Assembly (NCBI GenBank): GCA_023150375.1
Contig: JAKLLA010000030.1
Span: 1-38,264, forward strand
DNA: 38,264 nucleotides
Direction of reading: 5' to 3'
Source of the DNA: Burkholderiaceae bacterium
GTDB lineage: Bacteria > Pseudomonadota > Gammaproteobacteria > Burkholderiales > Burkholderiaceae_C
This document shows, one piece after another, positions 17,674 through 28,988 of the stretch. The notes beneath the pieces were generated by a model. That model had not been told where the DNA came from, searched no databases, and worked only from the letters and a program-made list of their open reading frames with translations. How positions within the stretch are numbered: the stretch's first letter is position 1; the number at the start of each line of letters is the position of its first letter. The position numbers and the translations under genes were made by a program.

Positions 17674-17748
17674 GGGCGGTTAGCTCAGCGGTAGAGCACT
17701 GCCTTCACACGGCAGGGGTCGCAGGTTCGAACCCTGCACCGCCCACCA
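17674..17748 (+). tRNA. tRNA-Val(CAC)
   Basis: A complete cloverleaf of 75 nt. The acceptor stem is GGGCGGT with ACCGCCC and an encoded CCA. The D arm is GCTC/GAGC. The anticodon stem is CTGCC/GGCAG around the loop TTCACAC (anticodon CAC, reading GUG). The T arm is GCAGG/CCTGC around TTCGAAC. Its 3' end is the insertion site of the following integrative element. Confidence 0.97.
17731..17748 (+). other. attL (tRNA-Val 3' end)
   Basis: ACCCTGCACCGCCCACCA is the end of the functional tRNA and the left attachment core. The element restores this end on insertion. Confidence 0.85.
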
Positions 17749-17817: not shown

Positions 17818-17863
17818 TTGCCCGTATAGCACCGCACGACCCCGCTTGAAGCTGCCCCCATGT

Positions 17864-17927
17864 GGGGGCAACATTGGGGGCAACCGGGAAACCCCCCGGA
17901 AAAGTTGCCCCCAGCGGAGTTGCCCCC
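17864..17927. promoter_or_regulatory. Putative integrase arm-binding sites, left
   Basis: GGGGGCAAC occurs at 17864-17872 and 17876-17884, and inverted as GTTGCCCCC at 17904-17912 and 17919-17927. The last copy touches the integrase ATG. The first two, with a 12-bp period, recur almost identically at 28893-28913 near attR. Arm sites repeated at both ends are expected for tyrosine integrases of this type. The overlap with the leader suggests the integrase or a partner also controls its own expression. Confidence 0.6.
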
Positions 17928-19214
17928 ATGCCGACCGACACCCTGACAGATGCAGCCATCCGCAAGGCGAAGCCCGGCGAGAAACCGCGCAAGCTGTCCG
18001 ATGGTGCCGGGCTGTACCTTGAGCTGCAGCCCAGCGGTGCGCGCTGGTGGCGACTGAAGTACCGCATTGGCGGCAAGGAAAAGCGCCTGAGCCTGGGCAC
18101 CTATCCAGCGGTGACCCTGGCGGAAGCCCGAAGGCGTCGTGACGAAGCGCGGGCACTGGTGGCGACAGGCACCGACCCCAGCGAGTCACGCAAGGCCGAC
18201 AAGGCGGCTCAGGCACACGCCCAGGTGCGCGCGACCCTGCATGCCGCAGGCGAGCCCATGCCCGGCACCTTTGAGGCTGTGGCGCGGGATTGGCTGCGCC
18301 TGGTGCATGAGCCGAAGGTGTCGGCCCGCTACGCCCTGCGCAGCCGCATTCAGCTGGACCGTGACGTGTTCCCGTGGATCGGCACGATGCAGGCCCGGGA
18401 CGTGTCGGCACCCGTAGTGCTGGACCTGCTGCGCAAGGTGGCCGCCCGCGATGCGCTGGACACCGCCCACCGGGTGAAACAGACCGTGGGCCTGGTGATG
18501 CGCTACGCCATCGCCACCGGGCACGCCGACCGCGACCCTACCCCGGACCTGCGCGAAGCCCTGCCCACACCGATCAAACGGCACTTCGCCGCCATCCTCG
18601 AACCCCAGCGCGCGGGCGAGCTCCTGCGCGCCGTGGACGGCTACACCGGGCAGCCCGGCACCCGCGCCGCGCTGCAGCTGGCGGCCCTGACGTTCCAGCG
18701 GCCCGGGAACGTGCGGTCCATGCAGTGGGCACACCTCGACCTCGACGGCTGCACCTGGTCGATTCCTGCAGCAGAGATGAAGCGTTCGAAGCAGGACAAG
18801 GAGACCGGCGCACCCCACCTGGTGCCGCTGGCGCGTCAAGCTGTGGCGATCCTGCGCGAACTGCAGCCGCTGACTGGATCGGGTGCCCTTGTGTTCCCAG
18901 GCCTGCGCAGCCGAGACCGCCCCATCAGCGACATGACCTTGAACGCCGCGATGCGCCGGCTTGGCTTCGGGCCTGACGAGATGACCGCTCATGGCTTTCG
19001 GGCCATGGCGCGAACGGTGATCCGCGAGCAACTGCCGGACATCGATCCCGAGTGGATCGAAGCCCAGCTTGCCCACGGCAAGAAGGGGCCGCTGGGCATG
19101 GCCTATGACCGCGCGCAGTACATGGCGCAGCGCCGCCAGATGATGCAGGCCTGGGCCGACTTCTGCGACCGCCTGCGTGAGGGCGCCCAGGTGCTGCCGT
19201 TCAAGGCCGCCTGA
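17928..19214 (+). CDS. int: Tyrosine integrase (P4/CP4-57 type) of the element
   Basis: A 428-aa site-specific recombinase. The N-terminal arm-binding domain (about 1-90: LTDAAIRKAKPGEKPRKLSDGAGLYLEL) is the DUF4102/Arm-DNA-bind_3 type typical of tRNA-targeting integrases. A SAM-like core domain spans 112-200 and the catalytic domain about 220-410. Catalytic residues are R258 (TFQRPGNVR), the lysine region SKQDKETG, H355 and R358 (HGFR), H383 (LAHGKKG) and Y393 (AYDRAQY). ATG 17928 follows CGGAG by 8 nt; the frame is open to 17862, but MPTDTLTD is the conserved start. It points away from the tRNA, the usual arrangement. Confidence 0.96.
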   Translation: MPTDTLTDAAIRKAKPGEKPRKLSDGAGLYLELQPSGARWWRLKYRIGGKEKRLSLGTYPAVTLAEARRRRDEARALVATGTDPSESRKADKAAQAHAQVRATLHAAGEPMPGTFEAVARDWLRLVHEPKVSARYALRSRIQLDRDVFPWIGTMQARDVSAPVVLDLLRKVAARDALDTAHRVKQTVGLVMRYAIATGHADRDPTPDLREALPTPIKRHFAAILEPQRAGELLRAVDGYTGQPGTRAALQLAALTFQRPGNVRSMQWAHLDLDGCTWSIPAAEMKRSKQDKETGAPHLVPLARQAVAILRELQPLTGSGALVFPGLRSRDRPISDMTLNAAMRRLGFGPDEMTAHGFRAMARTVIREQLPDIDPEWIEAQLAHGKKGPLGMAYDRAQYMAQRRQMMQAWADFCDRLREGAQVLPFKAA

Positions 19215-19217
19215 GCC

Positions 19218-19336
19218 TGTCGCAGGTGAAATCGCAGGACTACCCCTGCGACACCTGCGACAACTGCGACAACCCAGCATTCATGCGGGTTTGCGGGCTG
19301 TTTTCGCTGGTGCGACAGGTTGCGACACCTGCGACA
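19218..19336 (+). repeat. Left inverted array of TGCGACA heptamers (IR-L)
   Basis: One reversed heptamer TGTCGCA at 19218-19224 is followed after 22 bp by three direct copies at 19247, 19256 and 19265. A 39-bp core lies between, containing ATTCATGCGGGTTTGCGGG. Then come three more copies at 19311, 19321 and 19330; a further copy at 19342 has no mirrored partner. The mirror image is at 28701-28819 with the same spacing throughout. The array begins 4 bp after the integrase stop codon. It may be a replication origin, a recombination end or a regulator-binding array. Confidence 0.9.
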
Positions 19337-19357
19337 GGCACTGCGACAACCGGGAAA

Positions 19358-19384
19358 ACCTGATCTCGCCACAGCCAATCAGGT
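19358..19384. promoter_or_regulatory. Dyad upstream of the first regulatory gene
   Basis: ACCTGAT at 19358-19364 is repeated inverted as ATCAGGT at 19378-19384. It lies in the otherwise empty stretch 19349-19481 and could be an operator. No convincing promoter boxes are seen around it. Confidence 0.35.
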
Positions 19385-19481
19385 CAGAATCACCCTGCCG
19401 CGCCTAGGCTGATCCCCGAACCCCAGGCGCCCCACCTGGCCGGCGCGGCGCTCTTCGATGGGGATGCATGGGGGCATGCAC

Positions 19482-19862
19482 ATGACAAGCGGACGACGGA
19501 AGGTCGGTCGGACCGCCTCCGCTGAGATCCGGTGTGAGGCTGCTGGTCTTGCGCGACGGTATCGTGAACTTGATGAGGCCGGCGCATTCTCCCCCGATGG
19601 GGCCCGAGTGATGGCGGAGGATGGGTCCGTTTCTGTGCTTCATGCGAATCCGCACATGCTCCTCTTCGCACTTGAGCGGCTGGCACAGACCGGGCGTCTG
19701 CTGGGTGACGAACGTGGTCCGAAGGTGCTGGAAGCGCTCTGTCGGCACCGAAGTCGGAAGGACCAGATCGCCGATCTTGCGGCATCGCTGAACCTGTCCG
19801 AGAAGGCCGCTGAACTACTCTTGAGCGAGCGTTTGAGGAGGTCACGACGACGTGGACCCTAG
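19482..19862 (+). CDS. Hypothetical protein, first gene inside the left array
   Basis: A 126-aa protein (134 aa from the upstream ATG at 19458) with no family I recognise. The N-terminal part is basic (TSGRRKVGRTASAEIR). The C-terminal half, KVLEALCRHRSRKDQIADLAASLNLSEKAAELLL, looks like a small helical, possibly helix-turn-helix, domain. Its G+C is visibly lower than that of the neighbouring genes, a sign of separate origin. ATG 19482 is preferred because GGGGG lies 7-11 nt before it. It stands between the left array and AlpA and its end overlaps a perfect dyad, so a repressor role is possible, but this is only inference from position. Confidence 0.65.
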   Translation: MTSGRRKVGRTASAEIRCEAAGLARRYRELDEAGAFSPDGARVMAEDGSVSVLHANPHMLLFALERLAQTGRLLGDERGPKVLEALCRHRSRKDQIADLAASLNLSEKAAELLLSERLRRSRRRGP

Positions 19863-19883
19863 AAAACTGGCACCGTTCTAGGG
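19857..19883. promoter_or_regulatory. Perfect operator-like dyad before the AlpA gene
   Basis: CCCTAGAA at 19857-19864 and its exact inverse TTCTAGGG at 19876-19883 are separated by 11 bp. The left half overlaps the stop codon of the preceding gene, and the AlpA start is 35 bp downstream. No T run follows, so an operator is more likely than a terminator. Confidence 0.55.
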
Positions 19884-19917
19884 TGACGGTTGATGCCTCC
19901 TCTTCGAGCATGTGGGC

Positions 19918-20184
19918 ATGAACCCCGCCACCATGCGCAGCGCCACGCCGAAGGCGCAACAACCCCGCCAAGCCCCGACGCTGGCGGCCCCTGACCTGGC
20001 CGACATGCAGCGCCTCACCATCCGTGAGGTGCAGTCCCTGACCGGCCGCAGTGAAACCAGCATCCGCGACCTGATGAAGGCCGGGCGCTTTCCGCTGCCC
20101 GACTACCGCGACGGCCCGCGCTGCGTGCGCTGGTCTGCCGGCTTGGTGCGCCGCTGGCTGGAATCGACCCGCACGCAGGCCTGA
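19918..20184 (+). CDS. AlpA-family helix-turn-helix regulator
   Basis: An 88-aa protein. Residues 32-80 form the AlpA/MerR-like winged helix domain: RLTIREVQSLTGRSETSIRD, then MKAGRFPLPDYRDGPRCVRW, then AGLVRRWLEST. AlpA-type proteins control excision and early transcription in P4-like elements, acting as excisionase or activator. A GTG at 19912 would add two residues. It follows the dyad at 19857-19883 and precedes the long + strand gene train by 3 bp. Confidence 0.88.
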   Translation: MNPATMRSATPKAQQPRQAPTLAAPDLADMQRLTIREVQSLTGRSETSIRDLMKAGRFPLPDYRDGPRCVRWSAGLVRRWLESTRTQA

Positions 20185-20187
20185 CCC

Positions 20188-20496
20188 ATGGGCACGCTGC
20201 ACCGACTCGACCGCGGCCGACCGCCGCGGAAATGGGAAGGCCCCGCACCGATCTGGCAATCGGCCGGGGCCCTGAGGAAGAACGCGCACCCGGATTTTGC
20301 GTCGGCCGCTGCCGATTCGCAACTGGCCGCGTTGCAGGCTCGCTTTGCTGCGGCCGGCATGGCGCTCGATCCGCTCGGCGACGGCTGCATGCTGGCGCAG
20401 CTGCACACGCTGCATGCCGTGCTGCGCACCACCGCCGAGGCCTGGGATCTGCTGCGCGCGGTGGAGCGACAGCAGCGGGGGAGGGTGGCCCGATGA
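20188..20496 (+). CDS. Hypothetical protein
   Basis: A 102-aa protein with no recognised family. It has a basic N-terminus (RLDRGRPPRKWEGPAPIWQ) and a helical C-terminal part (LHTLHAVLRTTAEAWDLLRAVERQQRGR). It starts 3 bp after the AlpA stop, and its own stop overlaps the next ATG, so it belongs to the same transcript. Confidence 0.75.
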   Translation: MGTLHRLDRGRPPRKWEGPAPIWQSAGALRKNAHPDFASAAADSQLAALQARFAAAGMALDPLGDGCMLAQLHTLHAVLRTTAEAWDLLRAVERQQRGRVAR

Positions 20497-20801
20497 GCAC
20501 CACCACCACGACCGCCGACCACCGCGCCCCGCAGATCGTCGTGCGCCAGCACCAGCTGCCCGACGTACAGCCCGAGCTGGCCCACCGCGACCATGCGATC
20601 CCGGCCACCAGCGCAGCGGCGCAGGCCTACGCCCACGGCGAGCGATGCGCTGTCGAGTACCTACTGCGCTGCGCCCGCGGCCTGGCCAAGCCCGGCGAGC
20701 TGCATGCCCGCCTGGTGCTGCTGGAAGGGCCGGCGCTGACCGGGTTCCTCGACCGCCTGCAGGCCCATGCGGTTGCCACGCTGAAGGGGAGCGAGCGATG
20801 A
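20493..20801 (+). CDS. Hypothetical protein
   Basis: A 102-aa protein of unknown function. The core HGERCAVEYLLRCARGLAKPGEL and the C-terminal LTGFLDRLQAHAVATLKG look helical and soluble. The ATG overlaps the preceding stop (ATGA) and GGGGGAGG lies 8-15 nt upstream, which fixes the start. The frame is open further upstream, but that part is antisense in character to the preceding gene's codons. Confidence 0.75.
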   Translation: MSTTTTTADHRAPQIVVRQHQLPDVQPELAHRDHAIPATSAAAQAYAHGERCAVEYLLRCARGLAKPGELHARLVLLEGPALTGFLDRLQAHAVATLKGSER

Positions 20802-20827
20802 GCGCGCACAACCACGCACAACAGCGC

Positions 20828-21040
20828 TTGACACGCCCCGGGCACCCTGGCGCACAATGCGGGCAGGTGCTTGAAAACACCTTCAGATCAGCGGCTAGCC
20901 GCCCCGTCAGTGCGGCTTTGTCACGCCCGTATTCCGTCAAGGTTTCGGGCGGGATGGGCCTACCCGCAAGGCTGGCCGCACGACTGATCTCGTGTTTTCA
21001 ACATCCCGCCCACCCCGCGCCGCTTGAAAACGGCCGGTGT
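20828..21040 (+). ncRNA. Probable C4/P4-CI-type antisense RNA and immunity leader
   Basis: A structured stretch between two small genes. TTGAAAACAC at 20871-20880 pairs with GTGTTTTCAA at 20992-21001, and a second copy TTGAAAAC at 21024-21031 can compete for the same partner. Inside lie two hairpins, AGCCGC/GCGGCT (20897 and 20912) and CGCCCG/CGGGCG (20924 and 20946). Competing short complementary elements around a processed small RNA are the hallmark of the C4/CI immunity RNAs of phages P1, P7 and P4. TTGACA at 20828-20833 and CACAAT at 20853-20858 could be a promoter, with a long 19-bp spacer. The + strand is also open as a 157-codon frame from ATG 20798 to 21271, as often seen over such RNAs. 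Confidence 0.55.
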
Positions 21041-21073
21041 GGTCATCCGACGCTCGATCAGGAGCCCGAGACC

Positions 21074-21271
21074 ATGACGACCCGCAAAGCCGGCAGTCCC
21101 GCTGCCGCATGCGCCACCCAGGCGCGCCGACTCTCCCACGCTTACCGCGCCCGCCTGGCGCGCATCCTGGCCCGCCGTGCCGCTGCGTGTGCCCTGCGCC
21201 GCGCCGAGCTGCGCGCCCGAGCTGCCTTCGTGGTGGCCGCCGACCGCCTGAGCCGGGGAGGTGCAGCATGA
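21074..21271 (+). CDS. Small basic hypothetical protein
   Basis: A 65-aa protein very rich in arginine and alanine (RLSHAYRARLARILARRAAACALRRAELRARAAF), suggesting a single long amphipathic or coiled helix that may bind nucleic acid. AGGAG at 21060-21064 lies 9 nt before ATG 21074. The frame is open from ATG 20798 through the structured RNA region, so a longer product cannot be excluded. The stop overlaps the next start. Confidence 0.65.
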   Translation: MTTRKAGSPAAACATQARRLSHAYRARLARILARRAAACALRRAELRARAAFVVAADRLSRGGAA

Positions 21272-21507
21272 CCACCGCCGCAGACCTCGAGCAAGTCGCA
21301 CGGCAAGCCTGCGACGTGGTGAACCTGGCCGCCGCTGCCGCTGAACAGGTGGCCCAGGTCGAAGCCGGCGACACCTACCGGCTTCCCGTGCTGGGTGCGA
21401 TGCTGCGTGCCCTGCTGGTGCAGGCGAAAGCTATGCACGCTGGCGCCGATGCGCAGTGGATCGCCGCCCACCGGGCCGAACAGAGCCGAGCAGGGGGTGC
21501 CGCATGA
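21268..21507 (+). CDS. Hypothetical protein
   Basis: A 79-aa, mostly helical protein with no recognised family (TTAADLEQVARQACDVVNLAAAAAEQVAQVE). ATGA overlaps link it to the genes on both sides, which is the main support for it being real. Confidence 0.7.
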   Translation: MTTAADLEQVARQACDVVNLAAAAAEQVAQVEAGDTYRLPVLGAMLRALLVQAKAMHAGADAQWIAAHRAEQSRAGGAA

Positions 21508-21701
21508 AGCCCGCCGACACCCTGCTGGTCGAGCTGCGCAGCGCCGCCGATGCGCTGCAGTTCGACGCGCTGCACGCCCGTGCTGTGGAGGCTGGCGCGG
21601 TGCGCCTGACCGCCAAGGGCGCCGCCACGTTGGCCGACATGCTCGCCCGCGCCGCTGACGCGCTGGAAGCTGCCACCACCACCGAACCCGGGAGGGCCTG
21701 A
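21504..21701 (+). CDS. Hypothetical protein
   Basis: A 65-aa helical protein (MKPADTLLVELRSAADALQFDALHARAVEAG) of unknown role. GGGGG lies 5-9 nt upstream and the ATG overlaps the previous stop. Its helical, alanine-rich make-up is like that of the two neighbours, so these short genes may share an origin. Confidence 0.7.
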   Translation: MKPADTLLVELRSAADALQFDALHARAVEAGAVRLTAKGAATLADMLARAADALEAATTTEPGRA

Positions 21702-21703
21702 CC

Positions 21704-21997
21704 ATGGCCACCACCAAGAAGACCGGCGCGACGGGCGCCGAAGCTGCTGCATTGCCTGCGGCCGAACTGGAACGGCTCACCCACCGCCTGATCGCTGCAG
21801 GCGAGGCGCTGCGCGAGCTGGTGGCGCTGCTGCCTGAGCCGACGCACCGCGCGGCTTTCGAGATGGCGCTACTTGGGGCGAAGTGCAGCCCGACGCCCGT
21901 TGACGTTGCCGACACAGCGGCGGTCCTGCTCAGGAGCGCCGCCCATGCGAAGGCCAGACGCGCCCCGGTCCTGAAGCTTGCGGGGGGTGCAGCGTGA
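21704..21997 (+). CDS. Hypothetical protein
   Basis: A 97-aa protein of unknown function. It has a lysine/threonine-rich start (MATTKKTGATG), a helical middle (LERLTHRLIAAGEALRELVALLPE) and a basic end (HAKARRAPVLKLAGGAA). GGGAGG at 21691-21696 lies 7 nt before the ATG. The stop overlaps the start of the Toprim gene, so it is the last gene before the replication genes. Confidence 0.72.
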   Translation: MATTKKTGATGAEAAALPAAELERLTHRLIAAGEALRELVALLPEPTHRAAFEMALLGAKCSPTPVDVADTAAVLLRSAAHAKARRAPVLKLAGGAA

Positions 21998-22941
21998 GCG
22001 ACCACCTTCACGCCTTCCTGGCCGCCGTGCGCGCCGCGCTGGGCAGCGCCCCGGACGACATCGAACCGGGCAAGTGGCACCGCTTCCCCACCAACGGCCG
22101 GCGCAGCGACACCGCCGGCTGGTGCAAGCTCTTCGACGATGGCCGGGCCGGGGTCTTCGGCTGCATGCGGCAGGGCATCAACGAGGTGTGGACCGCGCAG
22201 GACCGGCGCCACCTGAACCCCACCGCCCGGGCTGAGCTGGCGCGCCAGATGGAAGCCGCCCGGCTCGAGCGCGAAGCCGAGCAGCGCCGGCAGTGGCTGT
22301 CGAACGCCGCCAAGCTGGCGCGGCTTTGGCAGGCCTGCGTCCCTTTGTCCCCGGGCGATCCCGTCACGCTGTACCTGCGCCGCCGGCTGCGCGATGCGCC
22401 CTGGCCGCTGCCGAGCGCCCTGCGGTTTCACCCCGCGCTGCCCTACTGGCACGACGGGCAGGTGATCGGCACGCACCCGGCGATGGTCGCCGCGGTGACC
22501 CGCCCGGCCGGCGACCTGGTGGCGCTGCATCGCACCTGGCTGACCCGAGACGGCCGCAAAGCCGACGTGCCCACCGTGCGCAAGCTGACCGCCGCCGCCG
22601 GCCCGGTGCTGGGCAGTTGCATTCGGCTGGGTGAGCCCACGCCGGCCGGCTGCATCGGCATCGCCGAAGGCATAGAGACCAGCCTGGGCGCCTGGCTGGC
22701 GTCCGGCCTGCCGGTATGCGCCGCGTACAGCGCCGCTGCCTTGTCGGCCTGGCAGTGGCCTGACGCCGCGCGGGCGCTGGTGATCTTCGCCGACCACGAC
22801 CCGGCCGGTGCTGCGGCGGCCGAGCGGCTGCAGCAGCGCGCCCGAGCCGCCGGCCTGCGCGTGGAGGTGTCCACCCCGACCACGCCCGGCACCGACTGGT
22901 GCGACGTGTGGGCGAACCGAGAACAGGAGGCGCCTGCATGA
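21994..22941 (+). CDS. Toprim-domain primase-like protein
   Basis: A 315-aa protein of the group found in phage satellites and islands. The first 65 residues (WHRFPTNGRRSDTAGWCKLFDDGRAGVFGCMRQG) resemble the small N-terminal domain of these primases. A coiled, charged linker spans 77-105. The Toprim fold occupies about 218-310: the catalytic glutamate is in IAEGIETS (225-229), the metal-binding DxD motif is in FADHDPAG (265-272), and DWCDVW at 301-306 closes the domain. It probably primes replication of the excised element. The product overlaps the next gene (ATGA), which supports joint action. There is no archaeo-eukaryotic primase or helicase domain in this polypeptide. Confidence 0.88.
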   Translation: MSDHLHAFLAAVRAALGSAPDDIEPGKWHRFPTNGRRSDTAGWCKLFDDGRAGVFGCMRQGINEVWTAQDRRHLNPTARAELARQMEAARLEREAEQRRQWLSNAAKLARLWQACVPLSPGDPVTLYLRRRLRDAPWPLPSALRFHPALPYWHDGQVIGTHPAMVAAVTRPAGDLVALHRTWLTRDGRKADVPTVRKLTAAAGPVLGSCIRLGEPTPAGCIGIAEGIETSLGAWLASGLPVCAAYSAAALSAWQWPDAARALVIFADHDPAGAAAAERLQQRARAAGLRVEVSTPTTPGTDWCDVWANREQEAPA

Positions 22942-24425
22942 GCGCCACGACGATGACGACCAACAAGAAGCCCGCCACCACCTCGGATGTGGTCGCCGCG
23001 CGTGCAACCGCCGCAAAGGTGGCCTCCCCCCAGGCCTTCGACCGAAAGCGCGCCCTGGCCCGAGCCCGTGAGCTGCTGGCGCCATCGCTGAAGGGTCGGG
23101 AGGCCCCGGCATACCCGCTGTATGCGCTGGGCAACCTGGCGCCCGTTGCCGATGAGATCGCGGAGCACGGCCAGATGCAGCCGGCACTGGCCGGGCAGTC
23201 GCTGCTGGGTGTGGCGTCGCTGCTGACGCAAGGGCTCTTCAACGTGCGCAGCCTGTCGGGTGTGCGCCCGTTGTCGCTGTACTTGCTGACGTTGGGGGAC
23301 TCCGGCGACGGCAAGAGCACGGCCGACGGCGTGGCAATGGCATCCGTGAAGGCCTGGCAGCGCCGGGCCGGCGAGGCCTACCAGTCCGAGCTGCGCCAGC
23401 ACAAGGCCGAGCTGCGCGCCCTGAAGAAGGGCGACACCGAGCCTCACGAACCGCGCAGCCCTTACCGCCTGGTGCGAGATGCGACCGTCGAAGGCCTGCG
23501 CCGCGACCTCGAGCACGGGCCGACCTCGCAAGGCCTGTTCACCGACGAAGCCGCCGCGCTGCTGGGTGGCTACGGCATGAGCCCGGAGCACAAATCGAAG
23601 ACCGCCGCGGCTTTCTCCGGCCTGTGGGACTCCGGCGAGCTGAGCGTGAGCCGCAGCATGGGGCCACGGGTCGAACTGCACGGCCGCCGCCTGGCGATGC
23701 ATTGGCTGGTCCAGCCCACCGCCGCGGCTGAAGCGCTGTCCGATCCGCTGCTGTCGGCGCTGGGCTTCTGGCCGCGCTTCCTGCTGGCCTGGCCGAGCCC
23801 CTGCGAGCCGCGGCAGTTCAGGCCCTTTCGCCCAGAGACGCTGCCCGCCATCGGGGCCTACTGGGAGCGTTGCGCGCAGCTGCTGCAGGAGCCGCTGCCG
23901 GGCGACGCAGGCAAGGCGCCGCTGATCGAACTGGACAAGGGGGCGGATGCCATCGTCGGCGACCACTTCGAAGAGATGGAGCGGCAGGCCCGCCGCGGCC
24001 CGATGCGCGTGGTCAAGCCCTTTGCCCTACGCGCGGCCGAACAGACCTGCCGCGTAGCCGCCGTGCTGGCCGCGTTCGACGGCAGGCAGACGGTGACGGC
24101 GGAAGATGCCTTGAACGCGGTGGACCTGGTGCTGCACAGCCTGAACACCTGGCGCGCGGTGATCGACGAAGGCGCGGCCGATGCCGCCGGAGCGCACGCC
24201 CTGCGGCTGTATGAGTGGCTGACCGACCCGAAGCACTGCCCGGGGTGGAAGGCTGAAGGGCGGGCCATCCTGCGCACCGGTCCGGCCTGCGTGCGCAGCA
24301 AGGACAAGCGGGATGCAGCCCTCGACCTTCTGGAGGCTGCCGGCCTGGTGAGCATCGATGCAGGCACGGTCTACGCCCTCGACCCTGCATCGGATCCGGC
24401 GACGCATGAAGGCGCTGCCGCATGA
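22938..24425 (+). CDS. DUF3987-family ATPase, probable replication helicase-like protein
   Basis: A 495-aa protein. The central domain matches the DUF3987 type: PLYALGNLAPVADEIAEHGQMQPALAGQSLLGVASL precedes the Walker A motif GDSGDGKST at 120-128. SQGLFTDEAAALLGGYGM (about 198-215) is the likely Walker B region. The C-terminal third contains a winged-helix-like part (LRLYEWLTDPKHC to ALDLLEAAGLVSI). Such proteins usually sit next to Toprim primases in islands and phages and are thought to help load or unwind DNA; the exact role is not established here. ATG 22938 overlaps the Toprim stop. The frame is open to 22899, but that part is antisense-like codon use. Confidence 0.85.
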   Translation: MSATTMTTNKKPATTSDVVAARATAAKVASPQAFDRKRALARARELLAPSLKGREAPAYPLYALGNLAPVADEIAEHGQMQPALAGQSLLGVASLLTQGLFNVRSLSGVRPLSLYLLTLGDSGDGKSTADGVAMASVKAWQRRAGEAYQSELRQHKAELRALKKGDTEPHEPRSPYRLVRDATVEGLRRDLEHGPTSQGLFTDEAAALLGGYGMSPEHKSKTAAAFSGLWDSGELSVSRSMGPRVELHGRRLAMHWLVQPTAAAEALSDPLLSALGFWPRFLLAWPSPCEPRQFRPFRPETLPAIGAYWERCAQLLQEPLPGDAGKAPLIELDKGADAIVGDHFEEMERQARRGPMRVVKPFALRAAEQTCRVAAVLAAFDGRQTVTAEDALNAVDLVLHSLNTWRAVIDEGAADAAGAHALRLYEWLTDPKHCPGWKAEGRAILRTGPACVRSKDKRDAALDLLEAAGLVSIDAGTVYALDPASDPATHEGAAA

Positions 24426-24604
24426 GCCGCCGAGCCCGCACCCGTGCCGGTGCCCGCCCCTGGGCCCAGCCCACCGCCGACGGCCCGGACGTGGAGGCCC
24501 TTCTGGCGCAGGCGAAGCGCTTCCCGGCGCCCGAACCCACCCAGCCCGCCAAGCCGCAAGGCCCCGCCCGCTTGCAGGATCGACGCAGGGTGCGCGAACG
24601 GTGA
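24422..24604 (+). CDS. Small hypothetical protein
   Basis: A 60-aa, arginine- and proline-rich protein (SRRARTRAGARPWAQPTADG) without a recognised family, probably disordered. It overlaps the DUF3987 stop codon by ATGA. Short length makes it the least certain gene of the train. Confidence 0.55.
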   Translation: MSRRARTRAGARPWAQPTADGPDVEALLAQAKRFPAPEPTQPAKPQGPARLQDRRRVRER

Positions 24605-24621
24605 GCGGTCAAGGGGTCGAT

Positions 24622-24870
24622 ATGCCTCAGGTGCTTCGTGGCCTCCTGGCGGACGCTCTCACCGACGCCGCCATGCAGCTGCGGCACGGCCCGGCCCCCC
24701 AGGCGCAGGCCCTGGCCCTGCACGTGCTGGCGCTGGATGGGCCGCATCGGTCGGCCTGGGCGAAGCTGGCCCCCTCGACCTTCCCGCCTGGCCAGCGCGA
24801 AGCGGCCCGGGCGCTGGTGGCCGAGTTGCTCGTAAGAACTCACATCGCCGCGGGAGACGCCGCCACATGA
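24622..24870 (+). CDS. Hypothetical protein
   Basis: An 82-aa helical protein (MPQVLRGLLADALTDAAMQLRHGPAPQAQALALHVLALDG). AAGGGG at 24611-24616 lies 5 nt before ATG 24622 and decides the start. A GTG at 24601 overlapping the previous stop would add seven residues. The end overlaps the next ATG. Confidence 0.7.
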   Translation: MPQVLRGLLADALTDAAMQLRHGPAPQAQALALHVLALDGPHRSAWAKLAPSTFPPGQREAARALVAELLVRTHIAAGDAAT

Positions 24871-25205
24871 GGCGACCGGACGAAGGACCGAACGCCCTGC
24901 AGTGGTTCCTGGCCGAGCTCGAGCAGCGGGTGAAGTGCCCGGACGCGCGGCGCGAGGTGCACACCCTGCTGCGCAGCATGGCGGGTGAGCGGATCTACCT
25001 GGCGCGCGACATCCTGGTGAAGGCCGAGCAACAGCGCATCGCCCGGGCGCTGCTGGACAGCGGCTTCACAGCCACCCAAGCCAGAGCCGAGCTGGCCGCG
25101 CGCTGCGGCTTCAGCCGGCGCACCGCAGAGCGCGTGGTGGCCCACGTGCTGAACCAGCGCGCCATCGCCGCGGCCGTGGCCAGGTCGGGGCCGCGCGATG
25201 CCTGA
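24867..25205 (+). CDS. Mor-like transcriptional regulator, first copy
   Basis: A 112-aa protein. The pattern GERIYLARD, then EQQRIARALLDSGFTATQARAELAARCGFSRRTAERVV, fits the Mor/C activator family of Mu-like phages: a dimerisation part with a short beta strand, followed by a C-terminal helix-turn-helix. Mor activates the middle promoter of Mu. Here it may control late genes of this element or genes of a helper phage. It overlaps its neighbour and likely paralog by 8 bp. Confidence 0.65.
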   Translation: MRRPDEGPNALQWFLAELEQRVKCPDARREVHTLLRSMAGERIYLARDILVKAEQQRIARALLDSGFTATQARAELAARCGFSRRTAERVVAHVLNQRAIAAAVARSGPRDA

Positions 25206-25494
25206 GCGCCGCTGCGCGTTCGTCGACGAGGTCCTGGCCGCCGCGGGCGATGAGGCTGCGCAGCGTCGCCTGCGCCTGGTGCTGGCGCGGTGGGCGGGGC
25301 AAAGGGTCTACGTGCGAGCGCCCGACGGCCGCGCGCCCGAGCAGATCGCCGCGCAACTGCTGGCCGCTGCCGTGACCGGGACCGATGCCGTGCGGATCCT
25401 GCAGGCACGCACCGGCCGCAGCGAACGGCAGTGCTGGCGCTACCTGCGCCGCGCTGCTGACAGCATCGGACGGACGAAGACAGCGAAGCGCTGA
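25198..25494 (+). CDS. Mor-like transcriptional regulator, second copy
   Basis: A 98-aa protein with the same layout as the preceding gene: AGQRVYVRAPD aligns with AGERIYLARD, and a helix-turn-helix DAVRILQARTGRSERQCWRYLRR ends the domain. The tail is basic (GRTKTAKR). Overall identity to the first copy is low, so duplication is old or the two were acquired separately. A heterodimer is possible. A 36-bp gap then follows, the first real gap in the gene train since the RNA region. Confidence 0.6.
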   Translation: MPERRCAFVDEVLAAAGDEAAQRRLRLVLARWAGQRVYVRAPDGRAPEQIAAQLLAAAVTGTDAVRILQARTGRSERQCWRYLRRAADSIGRTKTAKR

Positions 25495-25530
25495 ACACTG
25501 GCGGCAACGGGCGCGAAGGAGGCCCGCACC

Positions 25531-26046
25531 ATGCCGACCATCACCACCGTGACCGCGGTCCAGACCCTGCACGCCCAGGCCGTCACCCTGGGCCAGCAGA
25601 TCGACGCAGCTCCGAGCAACTACACGCTGAACCAGCAGCTCAGCCAGGTTTTGAACTCCGAGGCGGATGCCGTGACGACGGCCGCACTGGCGCTGCTGCC
25701 CGCTGCGCAGCAGGCCTATGCCGACGCCCTGCAGGCCCTGCACGTGGCGGGTGCCGAGCTGGCCGCAGTGCAGGCGCTCGTTTCCGCCCGCGACACCGTG
25801 AAGGAGCGCACTGCGGTCGGCTATTCGAACGAGCCCGTACGTTCGATGGTCACCGCCCTGCCGATGAAGGTGCGCGGCGGGATCATCAAGGTGTCGCCGC
25901 TGTCGTGCCTGCGTGGCGATGGCGTGGTTGCAGCCGCGGGTCAGCACATCCCGAGCGACTTCGCGGTGCGAAGCGAAGCGGAGATGACGGCGCTCGCCGA
26001 GACCAAGGCCGCTCAGTACCTCACGAGCATGCGAGGTGGCGCGTGA
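25531..26046 (+). CDS. Hypothetical protein sharing a C-terminal motif with the next gene
   Basis: A 171-aa protein of unknown function. The N-terminal half (TAVQTLHAQAVTLGQQIDA, then LLPAAQQAYADALQALHVAG) looks like helical, coiled-coil-prone sequence. The C-terminal end SEAEMTALAETKAAQYLTSMRGG resembles the end of the next protein (REDLERAARLRADQIMTMMRGA). GGAGG lies about 11 nt before ATG 25531. It opens a second block of genes that run to the right array. Confidence 0.75.
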   Translation: MPTITTVTAVQTLHAQAVTLGQQIDAAPSNYTLNQQLSQVLNSEADAVTTAALALLPAAQQAYADALQALHVAGAELAAVQALVSARDTVKERTAVGYSNEPVRSMVTALPMKVRGGIIKVSPLSCLRGDGVVAAAGQHIPSDFAVRSEAEMTALAETKAAQYLTSMRGGA

Positions 26047-26759
26047 TGCTGGCCATCCCCGCGGCGCCGGCCGTGCGCAAGCTGGCGGCCGAGATTGCGC
26101 GCATCGAGGGCGAGCTGGAGGCGGCCGAGGCGGCGCTACAGGCTGCACGCGAGGCCGCTGCAGTCCCCCGGCCCATCGCGCAGAAGATCGGCCCGGGCGA
26201 GCTGGAAACCGCGCGCCTGTCCGACCTGGCCGGGCTGACGTCCGGCCGCGTGGCTGAGCTGGAGGCCACCAAGGAGGCCGAGGCGCAGGACGTGGCCGAG
26301 TGGAGGCGCGCCAACGCTGCCGCGGTCGCCGACGTGGCCCGGCACGAGGCGGCGGTGCAGTTCCACACCGAGGCCCTCAAGGAGGCCCGCCGGCTGGAGA
26401 TGGCCGCCATGTCCGCAGCGGCAAGCCACATCGTGGCGGAGGCTCAGCAAATCTACCGCGATGCGGTCGACTCGCTGAAGGGGGCCGCCGCGGATCTGGC
26501 TGCACTCAACGCGATCAGTGGGGCGTCCTGGCTGCAGCGCATGCGCGTTGGCACGCCGTCAGAAGCGATCTCACCTATCGAGGTGCGGGCCACTACCGTG
26601 ACGGTGCCTGCGCTTGGCGCGATGGACATCTACGGGCGACCGATGACCGAGGGCGCAGTGTCCAAGGACACCGCTCATGTCACCCGTGAAGACTTGGAGC
26701 GTGCAGCCAGGCTACGCGCCGACCAGATCATGACCATGATGAGGGGAGCCCCGCAATGA
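26046..26759 (+). CDS. Hypothetical coiled-coil protein
   Basis: A 237-aa protein with a long predicted coiled coil, about residues 10-140 (KLAAEIARIEGELEAAEAAL, then RHEAAVQFHTEALKEARRLE). A globular C-terminal part follows (EVRATTVTVPALGAMDIYGRP). The last 23 residues resemble those of the preceding protein. The ATG shares one base with the previous stop (TGATG), and a GTG lies directly before it. No family is recognised. Confidence 0.72.
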   Translation: MLAIPAAPAVRKLAAEIARIEGELEAAEAALQAAREAAAVPRPIAQKIGPGELETARLSDLAGLTSGRVAELEATKEAEAQDVAEWRRANAAAVADVARHEAAVQFHTEALKEARRLEMAAMSAAASHIVAEAQQIYRDAVDSLKGAAADLAALNAISGASWLQRMRVGTPSEAISPIEVRATTVTVPALGAMDIYGRPMTEGAVSKDTAHVTREDLERAARLRADQIMTMMRGAPQ

Positions 26760-27244
26760 CCGCCTTCACCGTCGACATCACCAACATCACCGCGCACGAT
26801 GGCCTTCGACAGACCCTGCAGGAGCTGTCGGCCGGGATCCCTTTCACCCTGCAAGGTGGCCGGATCACCTGGGCACCTACCGACGAAGGCCAGCGCTCGC
26901 GGGTGGCCGAACTGCAGGCCGCTGGCGTGGGTGAGTACTTCGACGCCGCCTGTCGCGGGCTGCCCGATGGGGTCTACACGCCCACCATCAAGCCGGACGC
27001 CAGCACCGTGCGCGCAACCGGCAACCCGTGGGCGCCTGGCAGTTTCAACCTGACGCGGCAGATCGAGATGAAGCGCGACAACCCGGCCCAGGCCGCGCTG
27101 TACCAGCAGCATGCCCAGCGGCAGGCCGAAGGGCAGCGCAACCCGTTCGCCCGGGGTCCGCACTTCAACTTGACCGAGCAGCTGCGGCTGAAGCGCGAGG
27201 ATCCGCAGCGCGCGGCGCAGCTGAAGGCGCAGGCCGGGGGCTGA
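26756..27244 (+). CDS. Hypothetical protein with a duplicated NP(W/F)...FNLT motif
   Basis: A 162-aa protein. After an N-terminal domain of about 85 residues, two related segments follow: NPWAPGSFNLTRQIEMKRDN with PAQAALYQQHA, and NPFARGPHFNLTEQLRLKRE with DPQRAAQLKAQA. Segments of this kind are seen at the end of some phage-encoded proteins, often near capsid or scaffold genes, but I cannot name a function. The ATG overlaps the previous stop. Confidence 0.75.
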   Translation: MTAFTVDITNITAHDGLRQTLQELSAGIPFTLQGGRITWAPTDEGQRSRVAELQAAGVGEYFDAACRGLPDGVYTPTIKPDASTVRATGNPWAPGSFNLTRQIEMKRDNPAQAALYQQHAQRQAEGQRNPFARGPHFNLTEQLRLKREDPQRAAQLKAQAGG

Positions 27245-27246
27245 TC

Positions 27247-27471
27247 GTGGCGCCACGCACGCACAGCGACCGCCTGGCGCGCCTGGAGCAGCAGCAACGG
27301 GCCCGCCAGCCGGGCGTGTGCCCGGTGGTGATCTACACCATGGGCGAGCCCTTGCCGGATCCCCGCCCTCACCCTGAGGGTGGGGTGTTCTTCCTCATCC
27401 CGGACAACGGTCGCGGCGACCCATCAACGACTGCGCAGCCTTGCGCACTCAGGCCCACCGCCAATGCATGA
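27247..27471 (+). CDS. Small protein with DRLARLE start (first of three)
   Basis: A 74-aa product starting at GTG 27247, three bases after the previous stop. Its beginning THSDRLARLEQQQRARQPGV resembles those of the genes at 27721 and 27914. The middle VVIYTMGEPLPD is a probable beta strand. Function unknown; the stop overlaps the next start. Confidence 0.65.
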   Translation: MAPRTHSDRLARLEQQQRARQPGVCPVVIYTMGEPLPDPRPHPEGGVFFLIPDNGRGDPSTTAQPCALRPTANA

Positions 27472-27746
27472 CGAAACCCGCTGCAAGCCGCGCCATTGCT
27501 GGGGAAGTGCTCGACCCTGCCCCCCCCGGCCGGCGAGCGCCCGTGCGCCTGGACACGGCCGATTCGATCCGGCTGGAAATGGCCCGGGTCTACCGGGATG
27601 CCCGCGCCCGCAAGCTGGATTCGCAGGAGGCGTCGCGCCTGGTCTACATGCTGGGCGAGATCCGCAAGGCCTACGAGACGACCGTGATCGAGCGCCGGCT
27701 GAAGTCACTGGAGGAAGAGCATGAAGGCAATCCACGCAAGGCTTGA
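27468..27746 (+). CDS. Hypothetical protein
   Basis: A 92-aa protein. The core LDTADSIRLEMARVYRDARARKLDSQEASRLVYMLGEIRKAYE looks like two helices of the kind found in small phage- and island-encoded proteins. Its C-terminal end is acidic (RLKSLEEEHEG). The ATG overlaps the previous stop, and its own 3' end overlaps the next gene by 26 bp. Confidence 0.72.
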   Translation: MTKPAASRAIAGEVLDPAPPGRRAPVRLDTADSIRLEMARVYRDARARKLDSQEASRLVYMLGEIRKAYETTVIERRLKSLEEEHEGNPRKA

Positions 27747-27927
27747 TCGCGTCGAGGCCATGCTTCACAGGAGGCGCCCGCCGCAGGGCCCGCAGGTGAT
27801 CCGCTTCGTGGGTCAACTGCCGGACGGCGGCACGGTGCCCGGCTTCCTGCTGCACGTCGGCGGCAGAACATCGCCATGCGACGCCGCCGATACCTTGAGC
27901 CTGGACGGTCGGCATGAAGCTCACTGA
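27721..27927 (+). CDS. Small protein of the DRLxRLE type (second of three)
   Basis: A 68-aa protein, MKAIHARLDRVEAMLHRRRP and then a strand-like VIRFVGQLPDGG. GAGGAAGAG immediately upstream is a good ribosome binding site. It overlaps both neighbours (26 bp and 14 bp), so its reality rests on the binding site and on similarity to its two siblings. Confidence 0.6.
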   Translation: MKAIHARLDRVEAMLHRRRPPQGPQVIRFVGQLPDGGTVPGFLLHVGGRTSPCDAADTLSLDGRHEAH

Positions 27928-28204
27928 CCGCCTGGCGCGACTGGAGCGCCTGCACTCCGCAGAGCACCCGCTGCGGACCCTGCTGCTGATGCGTACCGAC
28001 GCTGGCCAGCTGCGCCGGGTGGACGTGTGCGAGGAGTTCGGATGGCCGCGGGGCACTGATCCGTTGCCGTTCCGAGATCAGGCCACGGACGAAGCCGGGG
28101 CAGCCTTCGAGGCTGCAGCCCGCGCCGCCGGGTTCGTTCCGCTGGTGCTGGGCAGCGAGGCCGACTGCGTGGCGCTCCTGCGTGACCTGGACGCGAGGGT
28201 GTGA
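27914..28204 (+). CDS. Small protein of the DRLxRLE type (third of three)
   Basis: A 96-aa protein. The start MKLTDRLARLERLHSAEHPL is like that of the two siblings, and TLLLMRTDAGQLRRVDV corresponds to their strand region. The extra C-terminal part (DEAGAAFEAAARAAGFVPLVLG) is absent from the others. Function unknown. Confidence 0.68.
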   Translation: MKLTDRLARLERLHSAEHPLRTLLLMRTDAGQLRRVDVCEEFGWPRGTDPLPFRDQATDEAGAAFEAAARAAGFVPLVLGSEADCVALLRDLDARV

Positions 28205-28205
28205 C

Positions 28206-28631
28206 ATGCGCAAGCACACCCGCCGCCGGCACCACGACGTGAACGCGCACCCGGTGCGTCTGGCCATGCTGGGCCCGCGTCCGCCCACCGATGCCGAGCT
28301 GGTGGCGCTGCGGTCCAAGGAGCTGCTGGCCCTGGCCGCGCTGGCTGAAGGCCGGGCCGCCGCGGGTGATCTGTTCATCCTCGGCCGGCGGGTGCTGGTG
28401 GCCGCGCACATCGCCCGCATGGGCATCGGGCCCGAGGTGCTGCCGCTGGTGCCCGCCTGCAGGCGAGTCCTCGACCTGGCCAAGGTCGATCCGGTGGCCG
28501 CTGGCCAGGATGCCGAAGGGGTGGCGGCGATGCGCGACGTGCTGGACCTGCACGATCAACAGCGCTGCGCGATGCCGGCGGGGGAGGCTGAGGCCGCGAT
28601 CCATGCGGCGGTGCAGGGCCGGCGGTGGTGA
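28206..28631 (+). CDS. Hypothetical protein, last gene of the element
   Basis: A 141-aa protein with a histidine/arginine-rich start (MRKHTRRRHHDVNAHPVRLAM) followed by a helical domain (LVALRSKELLALAALAEGRA, then FILGRRVLVAAHIARMGI). No family is recognised. It begins one base after the preceding stop and ends 69 bp before the right array; no terminator with a T run is seen in between. Confidence 0.72.
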   Translation: MRKHTRRRHHDVNAHPVRLAMLGPRPPTDAELVALRSKELLALAALAEGRAAAGDLFILGRRVLVAAHIARMGIGPEVLPLVPACRRVLDLAKVDPVAAGQDAEGVAAMRDVLDLHDQQRCAMPAGEAEAAIHAAVQGRRW

Positions 28632-28700
28632 TTCGTATCACCCAGGTCGCGCGCCGAACCCCGAACGGGCAAGGGTCAATCCGATTGACCGCACAACCCC

Positions 28701-28819
28701 TGTCGCAACTGTCGCAAAGCGTCGCAGCTGGCAAAACGCCCCGCAAACCCGCATGAATCCTCACTTGTCGCAGTTGTCGCAACTGTCGCAGGGGGCAAAC
28801 GTGCAATGACGCTGCGACA
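28701..28819 (-). repeat. Right inverted array of TGCGACA heptamers (IR-R)
   Basis: This is the mirror image of 19218-19336. TGTCGCA copies lie at 28701, 28710, 28766, 28775 and 28784, with a one-base variant CGTCGCA at 28720. After 22 bp comes the oppositely oriented TGCGACA at 28813-28819. Read from the outside, the gaps equal those of the left array exactly (22 bp gap; then starts 9, 9, 46, 10 and 9 bp apart). The core ATTCATGCGGGTTTGCGGG is conserved. Most other spacer bases have changed. The rest of 28632-28970 holds no supported gene. Confidence 0.9.
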
Positions 28820-28892: not shown

Positions 28893-28913
28893 GGGGGCAA
28901 CTTTGGGGGCAAC
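28893..28913. promoter_or_regulatory. Putative integrase arm-binding sites, right
   Basis: GGGGGCAAC at 28893-28901 and 28905-28913. The 23 bp from 28891 match 17862-17884 with a single difference and the same 12-bp period. They lie about 60 bp inside attR. Confidence 0.6.
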
Positions 28914-28971: not shown

Positions 28972-28988
28972 ACCCTGCACCGCCACCA
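28972..28988 (+). other. attR (displaced tRNA-Val 3' end)
   Basis: ACCCTGCACCGCCACCA copies attL except for the loss of one C before ACCA. Being no longer part of a tRNA, it is free to drift, which suggests the insertion is not very recent. An alternative is a mismatch-tolerant crossover. Confidence 0.8.

Follow-up and report, generated by a model that had tools for sequence, protein, structure and literature searches.

Paired inverted iteron arrays as candidate replication origins of an AlpA-type integrative satellite from a Burkholderiaceae bacterium

Results

Our analysis concerns a stretch of 38,264 nucleotides from a Burkholderiaceae bacterium (assembly GCA_023150375.1, contig JAKLLA010000030.1), hereafter the window, which carries an integrated element with an array of the heptamer TGCGACA at either end of its cargo. 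The element is inserted at a tRNA-Val (cac) gene (17674..17748, plus strand): a 13-bp repeat from the 3' end of the tRNA gene, ACCCTGCACCGCC, is found within that end at 17731-17743 (attL) and again, in direct orientation, at 28972..28984 on the plus strand (attR), which gives an integrated element of about 11.2 kb. The left array lies at 19218..19348 (plus strand) and the right array at 28701..28819 (minus strand), about 1.5 kb and 0.15 kb inward of the respective att repeats. Both are treated here as candidate replication origins.

An earlier description of this DNA, the sequence-only reading, had reported two arrays with mirrored spacing, and the comparison at the level of single bases bears this out. 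The left array holds eight copies of TGCGACA: a reversed copy at 19218-19224, forward copies starting at 19247, 19256 and 19265 and, beyond a core sequence, at 19311, 19321 and 19330, and a last copy at 19342-19348. On the minus strand the right array repeats this plan with a reversed heptamer at 28813-28819, copies at 28784-28790, 28775-28781 and 28766-28772 and, beyond the core, the singly substituted TGCGACG at 28720-28726 followed by copies at 28710-28716 and 28701-28707. Counted from the reversed heptamer (offset 0), the heptamers begin at 29, 38 and 47, the core at 61 and the remaining heptamers at 93, 103 and 112, identically at 19218-19336 and 28701-28819. The mirror is exact for this 119-bp layout but not for the left end, where the eighth heptamer has no partner on the right. 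The core, ATTCATGCGGGTTTGCGGG (19279..19297 on the plus strand, 28740..28758 on the minus strand), is the same in all 19 positions, compared with 88 of 119 for the arrays as a whole and 21 of 51 for the spacers outside heptamers and core; the core had thus been correctly described as kept, with one heptamer substituted and the spacers diverged. A repeat search returned the two as a 96-nt inverted repeat with arms 82% complementary and 9,360 nt apart. Conserved spacing between diverged spacers can fairly be read as the footprint of a fixed multimeric protein-DNA complex.

The window contains 21 copies of TGCGACA where 6.98 would be expected; no shuffle out of 100 had as many, and across 300 simulated windows the maximum in any 131-bp span was two copies. 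Elsewhere in the same genome the arrays have no equal: the heptamer triplet, with up to two mismatches, is found solely at these two places, and the core is exact at both, absent from all other positions at up to two mismatches and present at six further sites with three.

The tyrosine integrase gene (17862..19214, plus strand; Pfam Arm-DNA-bind_3, Phage_int_M and Phage_integrase) lies outside the arrays, as had been noted, but still inside the element. A different repeat, GGGGGCAAC, adjoins both att sites, with two forward and two reversed copies next to attL (17864..17927, both strands) and two copies near attR (28893..28913, plus strand); judged from their sequence, these are probably the arm-type sites of the integrase. 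By eye, about 12 of the 80 integrase relatives described below also have a repeat cluster at the int start or shortly ahead of it, some of them with other repeats. Because this separate repeat adjoins attL and attR, the TGCGACA arrays are themselves unlikely to be integrase arm sites. The proposal that the arrays are the ends of an older transposon-like unit finds no support on the same map: the inverted repeats are not at the element boundary, and the att repeats and likely arm sites lie outside them and have different sequences.

Inward of the left array follow the int-alpA RNA (RF02996; 19397..19463), the AlpA regulator (19912..20184; Pfam PF05930, 24.2 bits against a cut-off of 21), a Toprim/DUF7146 primase-like protein (21994..22941) and a DUF3987 protein (22899..24425), all on the plus strand, as is int. 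A literature search on int-alpA found nothing related. The element shares with phage-inducible chromosomal islands (PICIs) an integrase at one end, direct att repeats and genes for a primase and a replication initiator (here Toprim/DUF7146 and DUF3987), and with the PICIs of Gram-negative bacteria the AlpA regulator and the common strand of the int, AlpA, Toprim and DUF3987 genes. The element does have two iteron sets flanking a centre, but no origin directly 3' of rep with an AT-rich middle was found.

The DUF3987 protein is the candidate initiator. A model built from 29 aligned sequences had a mean predicted local distance difference test score (pLDDT) of 81.7 and a predicted template modelling score (pTM) of 0.75. 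Its 12 PDB matches at E<=0.001 were all MCM helicases or replisome entries, with TM-scores of 0.32-0.37 on the query, so that the model suggests a distant likeness to MCM helicases; the sequence profile of DUF3987 found no PDB relative. Beyond the ATPase core the model has helices at 429-442, 454-460 and 468-480, which could form a DNA-binding domain.

The heptamer and DUF3987 genes also meet in other bacteria. Searches for the TGCGACA pattern, made with no protein information, gave 92 stretches from viral contigs and at least 115 from genomes, 207 being listed in all; they are partly non-independent, L079 and L185 for instance being near-identical. In these stretches three forward copies are often accompanied by three reversed ones about 25 bp away. 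An open reading frame (ORF) similar to DUF3987 lies within 1 kb of the array in 36 of the 207 (12 of 92 viral and 24 of the 115 listed genomic stretches), and in 33 of these 36 the array sits 27-502 bp past the 3' end of the ORF; the arrays of L178 and L235 overlap the ORF and L129 is a weak overlapping match. In three more listed loci the gene is 1.3-2.2 kb away. A control search with the reversed heptamer returned 8 viral stretches, compared with 92 for TGCGACA, and DUF3987 was absent from all eight; the number of stretches is the informative part of this control, eight being too few to test the association with DUF3987. Among the gene families of the window, DUF3987 is the commonest in the 207 loci (39), followed by Toprim (18), integrase (18) and AlpA (5), counts that come from short loci and from a profile for DUF3987 but single sequences for the others.

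Within the same order, 5 of 399 genomes carry the triplet with one mismatch allowed, and a protein search placed three of the four other than the window's own beside a DUF3987 gene; one of these three, G253, is apparently the locus L220 of the pattern scan. The variant heptamers GGTAGCA and TGTAGCA were noticed by eye near DUF3987 genes in L070 and L237. A literature text search on the heptamer gave nothing relevant among the matches listed.

The paired arrangement was looked for among relatives of the integrase by an automatic test with no preset iteron. Of 299 genomes from the same family, 128 had an integrase match; leaving aside the match of the window itself, the loci analysed are 80 of the best 92. 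A pair was called when at least four copies of a 7-mer stood within 130 bp near the int stop and another cluster of the same 7-mer followed more than 1.5 kb onward. The first cluster was present in 11 of the 80 loci and both in six, namely L468 (GGGAACA), L469 (CGGGGAC), L485 (TGCGGAA), L506 (GTGCCAC), L542 (CGGGGCA) and L544 (GGGGACA); as a cross-locus control the left iterons were also sought in the other loci, and 10 of 877 trials returned a far cluster of four. A search with Pfam DUF927 over 66 genomes placed matches in just eight of the 80 loci, namely the six with a pair, L501 and L477. Pairs were therefore seen in six of eight loci with DUF927 compared with none of 72 without it, although six of these 72 have less than 4 kb beyond int and L476, which has a left array, ends at 6 kb.

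Three more pairs with int outside, L449 (GGGAACA), L453 (GAGGACA) and L459 (TGCGGACA), came from 20 regions around matches to the core, where L451 overlaps L544, and only the left array is seen in L452 and L454. At each end of L459 the iterons stand three plus three. The heptamer set added L555 (Pontibaca), whose order is int, TGCGACA in four forward copies, Toprim, DUF3987 and TGCGACA in three reversed copies; in L225 the left half is seen before the contig ends. Together with the window this makes 11 pairs, with the right array inverted relative to the left in nine, L542 having one of six copies reversed; the iterons vary between elements and agree within each. When ten of the largest ORFs from array-bearing loci were scanned, nine had the architecture PriCT_2-Toprim_3-DUF927 and the tenth, from the cut contig of L454, gave no match. 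As a separate observation, one ORF between the arrays of L453 (6312-8492) combines a ClpP-type protease with phage capsid domains, as in capsid-forming satellites.

The core has a wider distribution than the heptamers. Exact copies of the motif TTCATGCGGGTTTGCGGG stand in 77 stretches of viral DNA, and 88 contain an overlapping 18-mer; a rough chance estimate for one 18-mer is one to two. Once near-copies and short flanks had been removed, four or more copies of one 7-mer within 130 bp were seen at 14 of 55 and 13 of 40 cores. The criterion was satisfied at 3.0% and 3.5% of positions chosen at random in the same DNA. These repeats vary by locus, and 41 of the 55 loci are without four copies of any 7-mer nearby. 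By eye, the core adjoins tRNA genes or likely prophage att junctions in L265, L271 (its tRNA confirmed by Rfam), L299, L365, L408 and L421, and it is also found near terminase genes. Partial matches (E up to 10) were found in 28 phage records: in 21 they lie clear of annotated genes, and seven are without annotation. The 58 ORFs chosen from the 77 core loci belong to mixed families (integrase 6, DUF927 3, DUF3987 1, terminases). Since the core stands beside tRNA genes and terminases and outside genes, it does not mark origins alone; we regard it as a conserved DNA motif common to many phages and satellites. An Rfam scan over the core gave nothing useful and a literature text search did not find its sequence. 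Two identities were rejected: the core as an RNA hairpin or terminator, where AACCC...GGGTT could pair in the left array while the right one is without the 5' arm and the flanks vary by locus, and the template motif of NrS-1 polymerase, whose site TTTGGTTA, as given in the available part of its report (PMC8718748), has a weak likeness.

Two further features lie between the arrays of the window. The segment 20866-21076 (plus strand) is a conserved non-coding stretch with seven homologues (the window, L446, L449, L468, L497, L538 and L542); 12 of 50 predicted base pairs have changes on both sides, and the stretch is probably structured. Its pattern TTGAAAAC...GTTTTCAA...TTGAAAAC is reminiscent of the P4 immunity RNA, and it has a sub-threshold match to sRNA-Xcc1 (33.2 bits against 53). 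The ORF 20297-21271 was considered as a protein common to array-bearing elements and rejected, the alignments showing this non-coding stretch instead. The segment 24444-25205 matches phage late transcriptional activators weakly (phrog_836, E 0.0011).

Discussion

We consider it likely that the arrays serve a PICI-like, AlpA-type integrative satellite as two matched iteron origins of replication. Three roles had been offered for them from the sequence: paired origins for the Toprim/DUF3987 proteins, transposon ends and packaging sites. The first is the best supported, through the position of the heptamer 3' of DUF3987 genes in unrelated bacteria and through the paired relatives. The MCM-like DUF3987 protein, together with the Toprim primase, would bind the TGCGACA iterons on both sides of the core, open the DNA at the array and load there, as Rep does at the origins of Staphylococcus aureus pathogenicity islands (SaPIs) and other PICIs. 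In the integrated element the arrays face inward from the cargo ends and int is outside them; after excision they would flank attP and int. On the circle the arrays of the window would be about 1.6 kb apart across the attP junction, compared with about 9.4 kb through the cargo; in L469 the two distances are about 2.0 and 9.5 kb, and in L555 they come to about 3.5 and 4.0 kb. The two arrays would probably act jointly as one divergent initiation zone.

Several observations weigh against this proposal. DUF3987 (E<=1e-20) occurs in eight of the 80 integrase-selected loci (L467, L492, L493, L512, L528, L537, L538 and L539) and none of them is paired: L538 and L539 have one array, of TGCGACT, directly past the DUF3987 gene, and in the other six no array was seen beside the gene. 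L467 (580-10893), from the same genus and the same tRNA-Val site, is without a TGCGACA array; its AlpA, Toprim and DUF3987 genes are on the strand opposite int. Among 13 larger DUF3987 regions eight have a single array, L564 and L566 several and L555 a pair, and in L554 (13279) and L556 (7770) the second triplet falls inside the int reading frame. Of the DUF927 loci, L501 has the left array only, 1.3 kb past int, and L477 has scattered copies, while the arrays of L449 and L485 are mixed in orientation. No DUF3987 gene is present in the DNA covered by 168 of the 207 listed TGCGACA stretches, and integrase and Toprim accompany the heptamer equally often, so that gene co-occurrence alone cannot single out the binder. 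In the window itself 4.3 kb separate the DUF3987 stop from the right array, the corresponding distance being 0.03-0.5 kb in most relatives, and the gap between the left iteron sets has 59% GC, in contrast to the AT-rich gap of published PICI origins. Paired arrays enclose Toprim and DUF3987 genes in L555 and Toprim-DUF927 genes in other relatives; most DUF3987 relatives lack the pair. What the sequence-only reading had named as evidence against it is seen in part: triplets and cores also stand singly in many places, and some relatives lack one or both arrays.

In the strongest competing explanation, though in our view an unlikely one, the right array would be the sole origin and the left array a control site, at which the bound initiator represses the early operon or limits copy number by handcuffing the site to the origin. 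The right array does correspond in position to the array that usually lies 3' of the replication gene in relatives such as L506 and L555, and the left one directly precedes the int-alpA RNA and alpA, between int and the alpA operon. Furthermore, in L542 and L544 the centres of the two arrays differ, the GC-rich core being on the left only. A simple operator, however, would not need the core, the spacing and the outer reversed heptamer that the arrays of the window share, and in L459 the three-plus-three iterons are found at both ends.

We give very little credence to the arrays being accessory excision sites for the integrase or for AlpA as excision factor. They would flank attP on the circle, and integrase is found in 18 of the 207 listed heptamer loci; against this, it is the different repeat GGGGGCAAC that adjoins both att sites, AlpA is found in 5 of those loci, and only 11 of 80 integrase relatives have any array after int in the automatic test, while the pairs track DUF927. 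Packaging or partition sites read by a helper-phage or host protein would suit the fixed multimeric layout and the capsid gene of the paired relative L453, but they are just as improbable, given iterons that change between elements and agree within one, as fits an element-borne protein, arrays that adjoin replication genes in distant bacteria, and the scanned ORFs of the window element, among which no terminase was found.

If the arrays are paired origins, the pairing may serve the licensing of replication: the initiator would fire only when excision brings the inverted origins together across attP, integrated copies would remain quiet, and the core (about AANCYAGNATTCATGCGGGTTTGCGGGNGNTTTT) would be a common origin module for a shared factor. 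We put this forward as a tentative idea that is more probably wrong than right; the core does occur in elements with unrelated iterons and different helicases. The sequence-only reading had no described parallel to name for this exact layout, but it is not unique: ten other elements share the paired plan, and either array taken singly resembles the origins published for PICIs. What is new is the pairing, the inversion in nine of 11 cases and the presence of the core in unrelated elements; a literature search, with sources available in part, returned no paper on paired inverted iteron origins in satellites. The paired inverted plan offers a direct test of how satellites tie replication to excision, and iterons that differ between elements while matching at both ends of each amount to a sequence code pairing initiators with origins.

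Known replicons resemble parts of this plan. In satellite P4 a single primase-helicase initiator uses two separate sites with iterons, ori1 and crr; its initiator and iteron are others, and its sites are not known to be inverted arrays bracketing cargo. Iteron plasmids with handcuffing have direct-repeat initiator sites able to pair, but, as generally described, they are non-integrative and have one origin with a control locus, not two mirrored whole arrays. The closest likeness is to PICIs and SaPIs, which, as far as the accessible parts of the reports go, have two short-iteron sets around a centre and an initiator helicase with a primase (PMC6092414, PMC7581432). In the accessible text, PICI origins lie 3' of rep, with the two iteron sets flanking an AT-rich melting region, and deletion of ori lowered plasmid maintenance (PMC6092414); the Gram-negative PICIs described there also have AlpA and int, and their origin 3' of the helicase gene corresponds to the position in the relatives presented here. 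The difference, within the same limits, is that PICIs and SaPIs have one origin right after rep with an AT-rich centre, whereas the window has two inverted arrays at the cargo ends with a GC-rich core. According to the available part of the report on Cch2 of the staphylococcal cassette chromosome mec (SCCmec), SaPI Rep and Cch2 bind iterons via their C-terminal domain, and Cch2 is likewise an initiator helicase that binds iterons just downstream of its own gene and has a separate primase partner (PMC7581432). Cch2, as described there, belongs to another helicase family and recognizes the iteron AAGTG at one site (PMC7581432), while the satellite described here carries its TGCGACA iterons at both ends of the cargo.

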